Made by a program: the position numbers and the translations under genes. Shown in pieces: positions 21,251 through 62,119 of a stretch of DNA of 64,000 bases. This stretch comes from Oceanipulchritudo coccoides (GTDB lineage: Bacteria; Verrucomicrobiota; Verrucomicrobiia; Opitutales; Oceanipulchritudinaceae). Below the pieces are notes generated by a model that was given only the letters and a program-made list of their open reading frames with translations, was not told the DNA's origin and ran no database searches. The stretch's first letter is position 1. The number at the start of each line of letters is the position of its first letter. The stretch lies in contig NZ_JAAGNX010000003.1 in NCBI RefSeq assembly GCF_010500615.1, positions 124,001 to 188,000 on the forward strand. Direction: 5' to 3'.

Positions 21251-21349
21251 CCATTGGAGGGCGATTCGTAGTTCCAGTCCCCGCTCCACTAGACCGGAAT
21301 ACGCCCCTTCTCGTGGAGGAACTCAGGGGGAAGACCAGAATTCATTCGC

Positions 21350-21630
21350 GTGATCCGTAGTCCGCTGTACTCCCTACCTGAATTTGACCGTTTTTCGCAC
21401 TGGCAAAGCATGGGATCGATTTCATTCGTGCACAACGGCTCTGGCTGGACAAGAAAAGGGTTGAAACCACCGCCAGATCCATGGAGGGTGAATGCCGCTT
21501 GCGACTGATTGCACGAATTGACCAATCCCTTTGGGCCGCCATATTTACCAAGAGGAAACAGGCTGTCAGATTGATTTCCGTACGACGCGCCCGGAAAAAT
21601 GAGAAAGAACTTTATAATGAAATCACCTAA
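21350..21630 (+). pseudogene. BrnT-type toxin, frameshifted remnant
   Basis: In the frame ending at TAA 21,628-21,630 the DNA reads KHGIDFIRAQRLWLD, KKRVETTARSMEG, IARIDQSLWAAIFTKRKQAV and RLISVRRARKNEKELYN. These match the core and C-terminal half of BrnT ribonuclease toxins (AKHGIDF..W.D..R.E..AR, W.A.FT, R.IS.RRARK.E..LY). The expected N-terminal EFDR lies just upstream (21,380) but one frame away, with TGA stops at 21,379 and 21,385 in the core frame and no start codon. I read it as inactivated by a small indel near 21,392-21,408. The given 5' end is approximate. Confidence 0.72.
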
Positions 21631-22705: not shown

Positions 22706-22917
22706 CGCGATCCCCGGCAACCGGCCACACATCATCCAACTACGAAATACCCGAAAAACACGAAATTATTTCAGGATATGGCTTAGCTATCAGGGTTATT
22801 TGTGTGATTTGTAGTTTCGCCTATTTCGCGTGTTTCGCTGTGCCCTGCCGAAGCTCGCTGAGCGTAGGCGGGTAGTTTCCCTTATTTATATACCGTTAGG
22901 TTTTTGGCCAAAAAAAC
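22706..22917. repeat. Foldback repeats between hicB and the SDR gene
   Basis: This part of the 380-bp gap is made of repeats. A GCGATCCCCGGCAACCGGCC stretch (22,707 on) is the partner of the copy at 21,952. AACTACGAAATACCCGAAAA (22,738 on) pairs loosely with GTAGTTTCGCCTATTTCGCG (about 22,811-22,830) and encloses TTCAGGATATGGCTTAGC. CTGCCGAAGCTCGCTGAGCG then TAGGCGGG (about 22,845-22,872) resembles the palindrome at 53,241. TTTTTGGCCAAAAA (22,901-22,914) is a perfect 14-bp palindrome next to the SDR stop. Confidence 0.65.
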
Positions 22918-56950: not shown

Positions 56951-57957
56951 AATTCGTAGATATCTGAATTCCTCCGAAACCACTCCACTGTCTTCTCAAA
57001 TCCTTCCTCCGGCCCAATCCGCGGGTCCCACCCCAGCAATTCTCTAGCCTTTGAATTGTCCGCCTGCGTGTCGACCATGTCAGCCTTGTTGAAAGGCAAA
57101 TAATCAATGATGGCCTTCTTTCCAAGATGCCGCTCAAAGGCCTCAATCATGGTGTTGATGGCGACCGGTTCATTACCCCCACCAAGGTTGAAAACCTCAT
57201 GCCCTACCCGCTTGAGCGCCCGCACCGTTCCGTCGGCAATGTCGTCGATGTAGGTAAAGTCCCTTCTTTGCGTCCCGTCGCCAAAAAGCTGGATTGGCTG
57301 ACCATTATCGATCCACTTCAGAAACCTCAGCGGTGACATATCAGGTCGGCCTGCCGGGCCGTAGACTGTGAAGTAGCGGCAAATGGAGACATCGATCCCA
57401 TAGAGATGATGCCACGTGTATCCTGCTGCCTCGGCCGCTTTCTTGGATGCTGCGTATGGGGAAATCGGGGTATTGACCGGCAGGTCCTCCTTGAACGGTA
57501 TTGGCTGGCCCGCATAGAGCGATGAGGTGGAAGCGAGGACATACTTTTCCACCCCGTTTTTGCGCATCGCTTCTAATAAATTAACCGTCCCATCCGAATT
57601 GGTCCGAAAATAAACATAGGGATCTTCTATGGAAGCACGCACGCCTGCCCGGGCGGCGAGATTGATCACCGCATCGAAGTTGTTTGCTTTGAATAACGCA
57701 TCCACTGCATCCCGGTTTTCAATATCGAGCAGGTGGAAGCGGGCATTCTCTGTTTCCAAATCAACCGGCTTGGACAAATTGGAGAGGACCGAATCCTCAA
57801 TGGAGAATCCGAGGTCACGCAAGCGCCAGAGCTTGAGGCGCTGATCGTAGTAGTCGTTAAGGTTATCCACCCCAACAACGGAGTGTCCCTGCTGCAGGAG
57901 CAACTGAGCTGTCTTCCAGCCGACAAAGCCGGCCATACCTGTGAGGAGAATATTCAT
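56947..57957 (-). CDS. UDP-glucuronate 4-epimerase-like protein (CapI type)
   Basis: A 336-residue extended SDR. LLTGMAGFVGWKTAQLLLQQ and GVDNLNDYYDQRLKLWRLRD (near 30-49) are the signature of CapI/GAE-type UDP-glucuronate 4-epimerases. Catalytic STSSLY and PYAASKKAAE (Tyr-Lys) are intact. By family it interconverts UDP-GlcA and UDP-GalA, and with the adjacent dehydrogenase it could also act on the HexNAc-uronate. Downstream translation is coupled to the dehydrogenase. Confidence 0.86.
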   Translation of the reverse strand: MNILLTGMAGFVGWKTAQLLLQQGHSVVGVDNLNDYYDQRLKLWRLRDLGFSIEDSVLSNLSKPVDLETENARFHLLDIENRDAVDALFKANNFDAVINLAARAGVRASIEDPYVYFRTNSDGTVNLLEAMRKNGVEKYVLASTSSLYAGQPIPFKEDLPVNTPISPYAASKKAAEAAGYTWHHLYGIDVSICRYFTVYGPAGRPDMSPLRFLKWIDNGQPIQLFGDGTQRRDFTYIDDIADGTVRALKRVGHEVFNLGGGNEPVAINTMIEAFERHLGKKAIIDYLPFNKADMVDTQADNSKARELLGWDPRIGPEEGFEKTVEWFRRNSDIYEL

Positions 57958-58016
57958 TATTTAACTACGAATCCGAAAAATAACACTAATGGAGGAGGGA
58001 CTATGGATGAAGAACT

Positions 58017-58095
58017 AAACACGGATTACACAGATCTCACAGATTTAGAGTCATTCAAAATTCCCTGATCCTTTAAATCCGTGCGATCCGTGGTG
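58017..58095. repeat. CACGGAT-type inverted repeat downstream of glucuronokinase
   Basis: In the 142-bp gap after the kinase stop, AACACGGATTACACAGATCT (from 58,018) and the opposing AAATCCGTGCGATCCGTGGTG-like arm (58,075-58,095) are inverted copies of a CACGGATNNCAC(A/G)GAT unit. It is one of three foldback elements that fill consecutive spacers at the promoter end of the locus. No gene is visible in the gap. Confidence 0.65.
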
Positions 58096-58099
58096 TATA

Positions 58100-59194
58100 T
58101 TACACCACCCTCGGCCTCAGCACCCGCACCCCCATCGTCTCAAACTTCGCCTTCATCGCCTCATACGGGTCATCATCCTCAATGAGGCCGACGATCGCGC
58201 CGCCTGATCCCGCGAACTTGGCGGAGGCCCCGAATGAGCGTGCGGTATTGACGAGCTCACGATTGCCGTCGCCGACATCAAAGAGAGCGGCGCGGAGGTC
58301 GAAGTTTTCGTTAAGGAGGGCGGAGAGGGAGGAGATGAGTCGGTCCTTTCCCACTTCGCCATTGCTTCGAGGGACAGGCAGGCCCGGTTGCAGAAACTCT
58401 TCAGTGCTGGGGTTTGCGCTGTTACCGGGCCTAAAGACCCGACTCATGGTGTCACGGAACTCCTCGGTAAGGTTGGCCCATTTTTGAATGGCCTCAAGGA
58501 CCTGTGGATCATGCTTCTTGAACCGCGTGCGGAGGTCGTTGTGGTAGACCTCCGTGCCCTGGGAGAGGTCCTCGCGATAGGCGATGTAGAGGGCGTTCGC
58601 GATGGGGGTTGGGTCAAGCAGCTCGTATGTGCCGTAGCCGCGTTCATCCATCAATTGCTTGTCAAAATCCATGTAGACCAATCCCCCGTATGCCTGGGCC
58701 ACGCGGTCCTGTAGACCGGCGGGAATGGCCAGCTCGCAATTCTCGACCGCGAGGACGAGGTTGGCGAGCGAGTGGCGTGAGATGGCGACATTGTAGAACC
58801 CCATCAATGCGCGTGCGCAGGCGGTGATGATGGCGGATGAGCCGGCGAGCCCGACCTGGTTGGGAATATTGGATTTATAGCGCAGGGTGAAGTTGCGGTC
58901 ATCGAGCGTGATCCCGCGCGACTGGCAGTAATCGAAAAACACCTTACACGTCGCCTTGAGGAGCCGGAACCCTCCGTAGTAGCCATGCTTCTGGACATCA
59001 CCGTGGAGGTCGTTGAGCCCCGCAAAGACCGAATGGTCGCGTCGGCTCGGGAGCAGCTCCAGCTCGGGGGATTCCCAGAGCTCGATGGACGCATGGAAAG
59101 CATCGAACGTGAAGGCGATCGTCTTGCCATTGTATCCATCGGACGGGTTACCGATGAGGCCCGCACGGGCATAGGCTTTTGTACGGATCAGCAT
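58100..59194 (-). CDS. Glucuronokinase-like GHMP kinase
   Basis: A 364-residue GHMP kinase. RAGLIGNPSDGYNGKTIAFT (near 10), HGYYGGFRLLKATCKVFFDY, the ATP-binding PNQVGLAGSSAIITAC (near 124), AIPAGLQDRVAQAYGGLVYM and FAGSGGAIVGLIE closely resemble plant glucuronokinase, which phosphorylates D-glucuronate at C1. The next upstream gene encodes a UDP-sugar pyrophosphorylase, so together they could convert glucuronate to UDP-glucuronate. ATG 59,194 is used; the longer frame begins with a TTG in a repeat. The repeat abuts the start codon. Confidence 0.78.
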   Translation of the reverse strand: MLIRTKAYARAGLIGNPSDGYNGKTIAFTFDAFHASIELWESPELELLPSRRDHSVFAGLNDLHGDVQKHGYYGGFRLLKATCKVFFDYCQSRGITLDDRNFTLRYKSNIPNQVGLAGSSAIITACARALMGFYNVAISRHSLANLVLAVENCELAIPAGLQDRVAQAYGGLVYMDFDKQLMDERGYGTYELLDPTPIANALYIAYREDLSQGTEVYHNDLRTRFKKHDPQVLEAIQKWANLTEEFRDTMSRVFRPGNSANPSTEEFLQPGLPVPRSNGEVGKDRLISSLSALLNENFDLRAALFDVGDGNRELVNTARSFGASAKFAGSGGAIVGLIEDDDPYEAMKAKFETMGVRVLRPRVV

Positions 59195-59229
59195 CTCACA
59201 AAGGCACAAAGAGGCAAAGGCACAAAGGG
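59195..59229. repeat. AAAGGCACAAAG repeat at the glucuronokinase start
   Basis: The 35 bp upstream of the kinase ATG (minus strand) consist of CTCACAAAGGCACAAAGAGG followed by CAAAGGCACAAAGGGG, two overlapping copies of an AAAGGCACAAAG unit. It occupies the usual ribosome-binding region, where no clear GGAGG is seen; only the CCTTTGTG-rich minus-strand sequence precedes the start. The same family appears, in opposite orientation, ahead of rfbG (53,215). Confidence 0.7.
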
Positions 59230-59233
59230 GAAG

Positions 59234-59375
59234 TAACTACGAATTTCACGAATCTCACGAATGGGTTGTTTGAGGGGATTTAATCACAATAAATAACTAA
59301 ACATTAGAATTTTCGTATGTTCCGCGTGTTTCGTAGTTAAAAAACCATTCGGATGATTCGTGAAATTCGTAGTTA
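59234..59375. repeat. Foldback element 1 (TAACTACGAA...)
   Basis: A 142-bp element with perfect 20-bp terminal inverted repeats: TAACTACGAATTTCACGAAT (59,234-59,253) and its complement ATTCGTGAAATTCGTAGTTA (59,356-59,375). Between them are TGAGGGGATTTAATCACAAT and a second internal CGTAGTTA (near 59,332). Its end is within a few bases of the pyrophosphorylase stop. A homologous element is on the other side of that gene. Confidence 0.93.
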
Positions 59376-59378
59376 CCC

Positions 59379-60176
59379 TCATTCCGGCGCACCAACATCC
59401 TTGCGCTTGCCGGGGATGCGGATTGCGCTGAACCCGGATTGCTTCATGACCGCTGCCATGGCATCGGTGAGCTGAATCTCGTTGTTGCGTCCAGGGGGCA
59501 CCGTTTTCAGTGCATTAAAAATCGAATTGGAGAGAACATACCGCGCAGCGAAAGCAAAAGCATCAGGAAGCGTGGCGCCGAAGGCCCCGCGTATGACCGG
59601 CACCTCGCCGGGGGCGGGTTTTTCAATCATCGCATCGAGGGAAAAAGATCCGTCCTTCTGGAGGGCTCCCCCACAGACCCCATAACGGGTGGCCTTCTCG
59701 GGCGTTACCGATTCCACGGCAACCTGGGACATCTTCGTCTCTTCAAACAATTTCACCATCTGCGGGAGGGGCGAACCGCCCTGCATGATCGTATCGCCAA
59801 GGAGGACGACAATCCCCTCCCCATCGGCAAAGTCTTCCCCGCAGGCAATCGCGTCACCAAGACCGCGCTGCTCCGGCTGATTGATCCACGTAAAAGTCAG
59901 CCCGTCCGTGAGGGCTTCCCATTCGGCCATGGCCTCGCGCTTCCCGGTTGAGTCGAGCCAGTCCATGAGCGGCTGGTCCCATGAAAAGTACTGCCGGATC
60001 GCTTCCTTCCCCGCGGAGAGGATAATCCCGATTTCCGTGCAGCCGGCATCCTTGGCCTCCTGAACCACATGATGGAGCACCGGAAACTTTCCCACGTGGA
60101 TGAGCTCCTTCGGCACAGCTTTGGTCAACGGAAGGTAACGTGTGCCGAGCCCGGCTGCTGGGATAAGGGCCTTCAT
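59379..60176 (-). CDS. galU: UTP-sugar-1-phosphate uridylyltransferase (GalU-like)
   Basis: A 265-residue nucleotidyltransferase. MKALIPAAGLGTRYLPLTKA then VPKELIHVGKFPVLHHVVQEA is the GalU signature. Further blocks are NQPEQRGLGDAIACGEDFAD and VVLLGDTIMQGG (metal Asp near 141). It is a little shorter than most GalU proteins. It normally makes UDP-glucose; here its position before the glucuronokinase-like gene raises the possibility that it also activates glucuronate-1-phosphate. It is bracketed by two foldback repeats. Confidence 0.82.
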   Translation of the reverse strand: MKALIPAAGLGTRYLPLTKAVPKELIHVGKFPVLHHVVQEAKDAGCTEIGIILSAGKEAIRQYFSWDQPLMDWLDSTGKREAMAEWEALTDGLTFTWINQPEQRGLGDAIACGEDFADGEGIVVLLGDTIMQGGSPLPQMVKLFEETKMSQVAVESVTPEKATRYGVCGGALQKDGSFSLDAMIEKPAPGEVPVIRGAFGATLPDAFAFAARYVLSNSIFNALKTVPPGRNNEIQLTDAMAAVMKQSGFSAIRIPGKRKDVGAPE

Positions 60177-60186
60177 TTTTGAATAT

Positions 60187-60298
60187 TAACTACGAATCGC
60201 GCGAATGGGATTTTTTGGGGGGATGTAATCACCATAAAAATTTCCGTATATTCCGTAGTTAAGAAAATCATTCGTACAATTCGTGCGATTCGTAGTTA
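60187..60298. repeat. Foldback element 2 (TAACTACGAA...)
   Basis: A 112-bp relative of the element at 59,234. The arms are TAACTACGAATCGCGCGAAT (60,187-60,206) and ATTCGTGCGATTCGTAGTTA (60,279-60,298), with one mismatch that could pair as G-U. The centre carries GGGGGGATGTAATCACCATA, matching GGGGATTTAATCACAATA of element 1, and CGTATATTCCGTAGTTAA. It fills the gap between the pyrophosphorylase start and the regulator stop. Confidence 0.92.
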
Positions 60299-60312
60299 AG
60301 AAAAATTCGTCG

Positions 60313-60798
60313 TTAATTCTTCCCCTTCAGCGGGCCGGCGAGGAATTTCTCGACCAGCGGGAAGAGCATGCGGCCCTTCTTGCCCCACCCCTCCATTGTG
60401 TTGAGCCGGTCCTCGAGGACTTCCCGGTGCGCCTCCGGCACGCCATCCAGTTGATCCCTGAGGCGCTTGACCGCGTCCCCGCTCTGCTGCAGGTGCGGGA
60501 CCACGTTCTCGTTAAGGATACCGATCAGCAGCCGCCTGAGGGAGGTCTCCGGCTCGTAGAGTGTACGCCGGTCATGCGGGGCATAGATAACCCTGACCGC
60601 TCCCATGCGCTGGAGAAACTTCAGTCCCTGGCTGGCTGAGCCCTTGGAGATTTCCAGTCGCTCGACAAAGTCGTCAAGGGCCAGCGGCTCCGGCGAGGCA
60701 AACGACAGCCCGAACATGGCCCCGACCGATTTCGGCAGGGAAAAGGCCGTCGCGGCGGAAATGCCCAAGGCAACAAGGGATTGCTCGAATTCAGTCAT
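60313..60798 (-). CDS. GbsR/MarR-type transcriptional regulator
   Basis: A 161-residue winged-helix protein. FSLPKSVGAMFGLSFASPEP then LALDDFVERLEISKGSASQG (near 41-60) and LKFLQRMGAVRVIYAPHDRR give the helix-turn-helix and wing of the GbsR/MarR family. The C-terminal half is a coiled, charged dimerisation region. It is the most upstream minus-strand gene of the polysaccharide run and may regulate it. A candidate operator lies 128-156 bp upstream of its start. The ligand is unknown. Confidence 0.8.
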   Translation of the reverse strand: MTEFEQSLVALGISAATAFSLPKSVGAMFGLSFASPEPLALDDFVERLEISKGSASQGLKFLQRMGAVRVIYAPHDRRTLYEPETSLRRLLIGILNENVVPHLQQSGDAVKRLRDQLDGVPEAHREVLEDRLNTMEGWGKKGRMLFPLVEKFLAGPLKGKN

Positions 60799-60925
60799 TG
60801 CAGTTTGTGGCTACGCTGCCGCCCTTGGTCGTAGTCCCACAGGGGGACAAACCAATCGGAAATAGGCGAAATGGGCTGCTTTGCACGTGGGTAGAACCAT
60901 GGCGCTCCCTATCCTTTTGAAGGAA

Positions 60926-60954
60926 AGTTCAGAGAGTTCAAGAAAAAATGAACT
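60926..60954. promoter_or_regulatory. Candidate operator: AGTTCA direct and inverted repeats
   Basis: In the 310-bp gap between the regulator and the IMPase gene, AGTTCA occurs at 60,926-60,931 and 60,935-60,940, and its complement TGAACT at 60,949-60,954. The last two form an inverted repeat with an 8-bp A-rich centre (20 bp overall), the shape expected for a dimeric winged-helix regulator. No clear -35/-10 pair could be placed beside it, so the call is tentative. Confidence 0.35.
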
Positions 60955-60976
60955 AAAGAGGGGTGTTACGGGCATG

Positions 60977-61030
60977 TGTGTCGCGGGCATCCTTGCCTGC
61001 GCTTACCACAGGCAAGGATGCCTGTGACAC
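60977..61030. repeat. Long CAGGCAAGGATGCC palindrome
   Basis: A hairpin with perfect 14-bp arms, GGCATCCTTGCCTG (60,986-60,999) and CAGGCAAGGATGCC (61,009-61,022), separated by nine bases. The outer flanks (TGTGTCGCG and TGTGACACG) extend the pairing with few mismatches to about 23 bp. The inner unit CACAGGCATCC-TTGCCTGTG is the same family as the in-frame palindrome at 32,249. It lies between the putative operator and the IMPase gene, and could also serve as a terminator-like or mRNA-end structure, but no T-run follows. Confidence 0.85.
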
Positions 61031-61108
61031 GACTCTCACCGTCTCAACCAGGGAAAACACAAAGAATAAAGGGTTGAGAACAGCCGAATTTGGGCCTTCC
61101 CTTGCGGT

Positions 61109-62119
61109 ATGTCATCCTCGAACGAGCTTGAGCGCATGCGCATCCTCCTTTGCGAGCTGCAGAACCACCTCCGGAAAATCATCTGCACCGCCCGGGATGC
61201 AGATACGGCGCAGGCACTTGCTGGCGTGGCAGAAGTGACCCCGGCGGATACGATTTATGAAATCGATAAAATCAGCGAATCAGCTATTGTGGCATGGTTT
61301 GCGGAGCACTGGCCGGCTGAACTTCCGGTTGAGTTGATCATGGAGGGCGCGGAGGCGCACGGAGCGATCACCATTCCAAAGGGCACGCCCATCGGAGAGA
61401 CCGCCTGGAAATGCATCCTCGATCCAATTGATGGTACGCGCAACATGATGTACGACAAGCGTGCGGCATGGGCACTTGCCGGGATTGCCCCGCAAAGAGG
61501 TGGGAAGAACACGCTGCAGGACATTGCCGTCGCGGCAATGACGGCCCTGCCAACTTCCCGCGAATGGCGCAGCGACCAACTCAGCGCAATCCGCGGTGAG
61601 GGGCTCTTCTGTACGGCCTGTGACATGCGCGATGGCACGTCCGGGCCGATTGAATTTCACCCAAGCAAAGCCAGCGATTGTCAGCATGGGTTTGCCTCGG
61701 TGGTGCGGTTTTTTCCAGATGGGTTGGGACTGCTCGGCGAGCTGGAGGAGCGGCTCTGGAAAAAGCTCTATCCGGACGCCCCCGGCGGAAGCCCGCTTGT
61801 ATTCAATGACCAATACATCACCACGGGGGGACAATTGTATGAACTGATCGCCGGCCATGACCGGTTCATCGCCGACCTGCGTCCGCTTGTCTTTAAGAAG
61901 CTTGGACTGGATGGCAGCCTGAGCACCCATCCATACGATCTGGCCGCCGCCCTTGTAGCCGAGGAAGCGGGGATTGTCCTTGTCGATCCGGTTTCAGGGA
62001 AAGCTCTCAATGCACCCTTGGACACAACGACACCCGTGGCATGGGTTGCCTTTGCCAACGAGGCCATTGCGGCGCATATTGGGCCTGTATTGAATAAGCT
62101 GATACAGGAGATGCTCTAG
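61109..62119 (+). CDS. Inositol-monophosphatase family protein
   Basis: A 336-residue IMPase-like protein, longer than the usual 250-270. The metal-binding loops are seen in ILDPIDGTRNMMYDKR (near 110-125) and, more weakly, VELIMEGAEA (near 78), which carries Glu. HPYDLAAALVAEEAGIVLVD near 271-290 supplies the last ligand in place of the common WDxAA. It therefore has the phosphatase core but a divergent C-terminal block, and the substrate is unknown. The 3' end overlaps the convergent anti-sigma-like gene by four bases. Confidence 0.75.
   Translation: MSSSNELERMRILLCELQNHLRKIICTARDADTAQALAGVAEVTPADTIYEIDKISESAIVAWFAEHWPAELPVELIMEGAEAHGAITIPKGTPIGETAWKCILDPIDGTRNMMYDKRAAWALAGIAPQRGGKNTLQDIAVAAMTALPTSREWRSDQLSAIRGEGLFCTACDMRDGTSGPIEFHPSKASDCQHGFASVVRFFPDGLGLLGELEERLWKKLYPDAPGGSPLVFNDQYITTGGQLYELIAGHDRFIADLRPLVFKKLGLDGSLSTHPYDLAAALVAEEAGIVLVDPVSGKALNAPLDTTTPVAWVAFANEAIAAHIGPVLNKLIQEML

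Follow-up and report, generated by a model that had tools for sequence, protein, structure and literature searches.

Two hairpin-forming sequences enclose an NTP-transferase gene in Oceanipulchritudo coccoides (Verrucomicrobiota, Opitutales), which raises the question of what these foldbacks are and how they came to lie there. The window analysed is the whole 64,000-nt stretch at positions 124,001–188,000 of contig NZ_JAAGNX010000003.1, part of a 3.52-Mb assembly. Element 1 (59,234–59,375) has the outer arms TAACTACGAATTTCACGAATCTCACGAATG, with a core running from AAC to GTT at 59,235–59,374, and element 2 (60,187–60,298) has the outer arms TAACTACGAATCGCGCGAAT; both are gene-less and were assigned no strand. 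Their arms are true inverted repeats, 38 nt long and 87% complementary in element 1 (59,233–59,270/59,339–59,376) and 21 nt long and 95% complementary in element 2 (60,186–60,206/60,279–60,299), and the two elements have the ends in common that had been described for them. The gene between them, on the minus strand at 59,379–60,176, is the pyrophosphorylase (NTP-transferase) gene of the original prediction; it lies outside the element proper, with its start 10 nt and its end 3 nt from the flanking elements. Folded as RNA, element 1 reached z-scores of −7.4 on the plus and −9.0 on the minus strand (0/200 shuffles folding as well on either), and element 2 reached −5.6 and −3.7 (0/200 and 1/200 shuffles, respectively).

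The two elements are about 70% identical. The first 20 nt of their left arms differ at three positions; at two of them the right arm carries the complementary substitution, and at the third a G-U pair remains, exactly as had been claimed. Both compensated changes fall within the spacer behind the first iteron, the 7-mer repeat unit of the arms. The centre described as conserved, GGGG.AT.TAATCAC.ATA, is present in both elements but occurs in no other locus of the genome that was examined, and it may mark a shared immediate parent. Each element also has, by eye, a one-sided arm in its interior, which is on the minus strand and belongs to a different iteron type (TAACTACGAAACACGCGGAACATACGAAAA at 59,310–59,339 in element 1 and TAACTACGGAATATACGGAAA at 60,241–60,261 in element 2). 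The pair of homologous foldbacks is real, and it belongs to a larger family.

A third foldback, of the iteron type CACGGAT/CACAGAT, occupies the adjoining gap of the same gene row (58,018–58,094, no strand, ends set by eye), so that three successive gaps in this row contain foldbacks. Close by are a one-sided arm relic at 59,197–59,227 (plus strand) of the CACAAAG type, which is found on either side of the GxxExxY gene in locus L045, an unpaired left arm beginning TTTAACTACGAATCC at 57,960–57,990 (plus strand) and a degenerate partial arm, AATTCGTCGTTAA, adjoining element 2 at 60,304–60,316 (minus strand). A further gene-less copy with AACTACGAAATACCCGAAA arms lies at 22,738–22,816 of the window (C3:146738–146816, no strand), and at 21,264–21,274 and 21,344–21,362 there are two relics of this family, each a right arm lacking its left counterpart. 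A hairpin at 60,976–61,032, formed by an inverted repeat resembling GTGTCGCGGGCATCCTTGCCTGCG..CGCAGGCAAGGATGCCTGTGACAC, gave a sub-threshold match to an Rfam miRNA model and looks like another dispersed repeat.

Dispersed copies and a copy with a GxxExxY gene

The arm consensus of the family is AAC followed by two to three iterons of the type CRCDRAD (CACGAAA, CACGAAT, CGCGAAA, CACAGAG, CGCAAAG and others), usually spaced at 9 nt and sometimes at 10 nt. Within one element the iterons are mostly alike, both in the same arm and between the two arms. At the extreme ends AAC...GTT or GCC...GGC predominate, a tally that includes named loci for which the search pattern itself required AAC/GTT- or GCC/GGC-type ends. 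Elements 1 and 2 carry iterons of the L044 type.

As a DNA query, element 1 retrieved little from its own genome besides the pair, but the end motif does find intergenic foldbacks, and at numerous positions; element 2 gave no match in 36 related genomes at E 0.001, because the elements have only their arms in common. In the genome, the 19-nt arm pattern AACTACGAATNNCNCGAAT (up to two mismatches) found 31 arms against two matches of the reversed control, more than expected by chance. Twenty-six of these arms form 13 inverted pairs, 12 of them gene-less (68–157 nt) and one of 436 nt with a gene; apart from elements 1 and 2, eleven pairs are spread across three contigs. Both neighbouring ORFs lie within 25 nt in 10 of the 13 paired copies. 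Element 1 itself is separated from its neighbours by 4 and 40 nt, an opposite-strand ORF overlaps the copy at C1:1457261, and the ORFs around the copy at 22,738 are farther away. The 436-nt copy (C3:829333–829768) has the same ends as the gene-less copies and encodes a GxxExxY protein, and the other two GxxExxY genes of this genome lie between arms of the iteron types CACAAAG and CACGGCG.

The 12 gene-less pairs are short, ORF-free and multicopy with terminal inverted repeats, and they resemble MITEs in that their inverted ends are common to a longer coding element and in their intergenic dispersal. Unlike MITEs, they have no target-site duplication and no known transposase family, and their arms consist of iterons. 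In several foldbacks, an inverted iteron pair of another type lies within the first (L281, L290–L293 and L297, and C2:573320 and C3:405993 in the own genome), an arrangement suggestive of one element having inserted into another's loop.

The coding form measures about 440 bp and holds a single gene, for a GxxExxY protein of roughly 120–140 residues. The protein of locus L044 matched TIGR04256 (E 6.4e-41) and PF13366 (PDDEXK_3; E 5.1e-40), and the coding copies score far above the cut-off. Eleven positions are invariant in 27 GxxExxY proteins, including D69, E79 and K81 of the D..ExK catalytic core. A structure model of the L125 protein, built from a 48-row alignment, had a pLDDT of 95.6; Foldseek placed 4ic1 (SSO0001; Cas4) and LHK-Exo below E 0.001, with lambda exonuclease next. 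The VIA-align Z-score was 10.1 for 4ic1 and at most 7.8 for the others, including a middling 6.8 for the Holliday-junction resolvase 1gef. These structural neighbours indicate only a common fold. We are confident that the protein, as modelled, has a PD-(D/E)XK nuclease fold with a complete core, and it is a predicted nuclease. A sequence match to T7 endonuclease I (E 0.9) is too weak to count as evidence, and the phage collection gave no match to the L044 protein. The literature searched, outside which lay most subscription papers and all preprints, yielded neither an account of these iteron arms nor the term ‘PDDEXK_3’. The family (TIGR04256; PF13366) is named for its motif, and in that literature the name ‘GxxExxY’ turned up in two papers, both of which mention it in passing.

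Iteron arms and GxxExxY genes across genomes

To score arms, one 150-nt flank of a gene was locally aligned to the reverse complement of the other, and a score of at least 15 was counted. In the order, inverted arms flank GxxExxY genes in 26 of 30 testable loci (six truncated loci, L052, L066, L082, L090, L091 and L097, being left out), compared to 0 of 32 for other ORFs of these loci. Among the best 80 matches from one scan of GTDB contigs with an L044-type query, a set of named loci that leans to that type, 76 were testable (L131, L139, L191 and L196 had too short flanks); arms were found in 55 of the 76, from many phyla, compared to 4 of 206 other ORFs, and the best-scoring of these four controls is itself an iteron pair. 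The remaining 4/30 loci of the order and 21/76 of the named loci did not reach this score. Two plasmid-borne genes for GxxExxY were also checked, one from a spirochaete and the other from a fusobacterium: just a 16-nt, 88% pair flanks one of the two, and the other has no convincing arms.

A strict triple-iteron pattern, CRCDRADNNCRCDRADNNCRCDRAD, was counted across 87 genomes of the order and matched 811 times, the reversed pattern eight times. It occurs in 45 of the 87 genomes, with just two matches in the own genome. Of the 43 genomes with GxxExxY 37 contain it, compared to 8 of the 44 that lack GxxExxY (Fisher p 1.1e-10); the latter 44 genomes account for 21 of the 811 arms. The exceptions are six GxxExxY genomes lacking a strict triple iteron and eight GxxExxY-free genomes that have some. 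Genome size is a partial confounder of this co-occurrence: among genomes of at least 2.5 Mb, triple iterons were found in 35 of 41 with GxxExxY and 3 of 11 without (p 4e-4).

The orientation of neighbouring arms was counted for 131 arms in four of the 45 arm-bearing genomes (G036, G054, G068 and G095). Within 600 nt, neighbours were inverted 31 times, everted never and on the same strand four times. No GxxExxY match was present in 28 of the 31 inverted pairs, and only six of the 131 arms lie within 400 nt of one; one of the 31 pairs joins different arm types (G036, 1,318,197), and another, of 523 nt (G054, C43), may hold another gene. Genome G047 has no excess of the arm pattern (7 compared to 10 for the control), but two pairs are nonetheless clear, and a gene-less pair there shares its arms with a gene-bearing one.

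We then compared iteron types with the proteins they flank, labelling 71 of 112 proteins by rule; the remainder have too few iterons. A quickly built tree of GxxExxY proteins (n = 73), whose loci come from 15 named phyla and mostly from MAGs, splits into two groups with a support of 97. The last base of the iteron is G in 12 members of one clade and A/T in one (n = 13), and A/T in 57 and G in three of the other (n = 60). The iteron type changes three times on the tree, compared to a mean of 13.9 after shuffling, and none of 500 shuffles was as low. The protein motif (YQ or YE) is associated with the iteron type at p 1.2e-7, or 0.0055 in the order alone. L123, a second fetch of the L071 place, was removed from the Fisher test and from the tree, and L043–L045 were added to the tree with iteron types read by hand. 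Both protein clades are present in the own genome, where each goes with a separate iteron type. The GxxExxY element of L126, on a contig titled as a Klebsiella pneumoniae MAG, has a Pedosphaera element as its tree neighbour, and this contig is probably misbinned.

As judged from these sequences, the agreement between iteron and protein types fits recognition of the arms by the protein. Joint inheritance without recognition could also produce such co-variation, and the coupling between protein and arms does not show that the gene-less copies depend on the GxxExxY protein.

Insertion sites, alternative explanations and rRNA intervening sequences

Related sites without the element were found in two settings. 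In G003, a genome of the same genus, the orthologous gap on the transferase/GHMP-kinase side of the gene, the side to which this comparison refers, is 18 nt long compared to 184 nt in the window, and the element is absent. The fabD–fabG gap of Sphingomonas parapaucimobilis (NZ_CP155749) holds a GxxExxY element of 437 nt, which has arms of 25 nt (92%); in four related alphaproteobacterial records this gap is 14–32 nt long and element-free. As the empty sites come from other species, the junctions are not exactly readable. We examined 58 distinct boundaries, drawn from 28 sites of the own genome or G068/G095 and from 31 of the 80 named loci with both arms fitting the pattern. None had a direct repeat of at least 3 nt (shuffled mean 1.2), and with slack allowed, 19 of the 58 had one compared to 16.3 ± 2.4, which is no excess. 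The bases that adjoin the elements tend to be T at the left end and A at the right. Two ideas about the target were rejected. A test for insertion into hairpin loops found flank-to-flank complementarity raised in the first 3 nt only (1.40 compared to 1.18 ± 0.10, with 6 of 500 shuffles reaching 1.40) and no excess farther out, and the long frames around GxxExxY and S23 matches, which might have indicated in-frame insertion into host genes, are spurious by eye.

The earlier suggestion that the arms are the ends of a mobile element gains support from the dispersed copies, the fixed ends, a gene-bearing relative whose ends are the same and the element-free related sites. The identity of the family, as iteron-armed foldbacks with a coding member that carries GxxExxY, is well supported. 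We consider it likely that elements 1 and 2 are gene-less, MITE-like members of this widespread family, moved by the GxxExxY protein. In such a mechanism, the protein would recognise the iterons of the arms and cut at or near the hairpin or cruciform ends, and by this cutting it could move its own element, and the gene-less copies in trans, into short intergenic gaps.

Several other explanations were weighed. GxxExxY may be a passenger, with the foldbacks moved by another enzyme or by replication template switching; movement by GxxExxY is an inference, most copies are gene-less, and in the order S23 genes, which encode an unrelated protein, have similar flanks in 24 of 26 loci. A mere passenger would not be expected to have iterons that track its protein tree, a complete nuclease core or iterons so scarce in genomes that lack it, and we give this reading a low, though appreciable, probability. 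Local duplication of one hairpin to both sides of the gene was to be assumed, according to the original prediction, if the genome held no further copies and covariation showed no excess. The 13 paired copies of the genome are dispersed, and although the roughly 70% identity and the private centre of elements 1 and 2 favour a duplication, the eleven further pairs over three contigs contradict it as a full explanation, leaving it next to no probability. It is very unlikely that the foldbacks are REP/BIME-like hairpins moved by a RAYT, a Y1 transposase. Y1 transposition produces no target duplication, which matches the boundaries here, and the element ends contain GTAG in TTCGTAGTTA; GTAG belongs to this subtype, however, and is not family-wide, with GTGG, GCGG and others in relatives. 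The RAYT (TnpA_REP-like) gene that had been proposed was looked for, and the genome does have three Y1-transposase matches, but none of these loci contains AACTACGAA (2.2–3.3 kb searched at each), and two of the genes have flanks of their own, with a different REP-like family at one and an unrelated 30-nt perfect inverted repeat at another. Verrucomicrobia are known to have REPs and RAYTs (PMC3733652), and REP/BIME sequences with RAYTs (REPtrons) and TIRtrons are likewise palindromes scattered between genes for which a dedicated enzyme has been proposed (PMC3733652); the present elements differ from REP/BIME-RAYT systems in their enzyme, in their much longer arms and in the lack of a conserved tetranucleotide tag.

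The hairpins could also be kept as RNA elements, that is, as processing or stability signals between genes without present mobility. The strong folds, the narrow intergenic gaps and the compensated changes in elements 1 and 2 agree with this, as does the cutting of Coxiella IVS hairpins by RNase III (PMC4990558). Selection for the folded form, as originally proposed, was nevertheless not demonstrated, since covariation is weak despite the two compensated changes: in the 13 own-genome copies, arms of the same copy pair at 266 positions compared to 257.5 ± 5.2 between copies (p 0.066). Spacers in four other genomes agree at 75 of 124 positions compared to 65 ± 6 after shuffling (reached by 1251 of 20,000 shuffles), and iterons, more clearly, at 591 of 651 compared to 552.5 ± 10.5, an agreement between arms that mirrors the subtypes. 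This weakness arises because a single iteron consensus accounts for most of both arms. A simple intrinsic terminator pattern of GC-rich stem, small loop and T run matched twice in 57,900–60,900, never inside elements 1 and 2 and once in the third foldback (58,079–58,093). In addition, the gap is element-free in the same-genus genome, the copies adjoin unrelated genes, and GxxExxY genes between the same arms would be left unexplained. We regard maintenance as RNA elements as improbable, and an RNA-level role may be a side effect of the foldbacks. Assignment to an Rfam family was rejected, as all matches, including a miRNA model over element 1, were below the gathering score. Of the Y1-transposase genes, that of L039 (G000:C3:202651–205938, outside the window) has its own REP-like repeats on both sides, GAGTCGGGCCTTTCAGGCCCGG ... 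CGGCGCTGAAGCGCCGACTC, and that of L038 lies between 30-nt perfect inverted repeats (1412–1441 and 2456–2485) unrelated to the foldbacks.

If GxxExxY, a common protein family named merely for a motif, is the motor or just a marker gene of these elements, many unexplained intergenic hairpins in many phyla gain an origin. In our best reading, the GxxExxY foldback elements are constructed like the S23 intervening sequences (IVS) of 23S rRNA. As described in PMC4990558, the IVS of Coxiella burnetii comprises a few hundred nucleotides with a foldback stem and one small ORF, likewise here, and has short tandem repeats (heptamers) beside the ORF that compare with the iterons; its hairpins are cut by RNase III, and IVS mobility has long been suspected. 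The window elements have the inverted ends folding to one stem. They differ from IVS in the GxxExxY protein, the intergenic place, an iteron period of 9 nt rather than 7–8 nt and the abundance of gene-less copies; the S23 ORF (PF05635) has no match in the own genome, and no rRNA match was found at 58,000–62,000.

A broader proposal, which we hold only tentatively and think somewhat less probable than its contrary, is that GxxExxY elements form a separate class of transposable element, in which a single PD-(D/E)XK nuclease encoded within about 440 bp would read the iteron arms and cut the hairpin, inserting without target duplication and moving many gene-less copies in trans, and that S23 IVS have the same architecture with another protein. 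Such a shared architecture would account for the origin of rRNA IVS, and the S23 parallel makes this long-open question testable, since it allows joint assays of arms, protein and hairpin. The S23 genes of the order (four-helix, PF05635; L075–L104) have arms with iterons of a shorter period, 7–8 nt by eye, at 24 of the 26 loci tested. Twenty of the 30 S23 loci were scanned for rRNA, with no match around any of these 20, and from their sequences, the S23 loci of the order appear to be IVS-like elements outside rRNA. One genome of 3.4 Mb (G023) has 182 triple-iteron arms, together with two GxxExxY and nine S23 matches.
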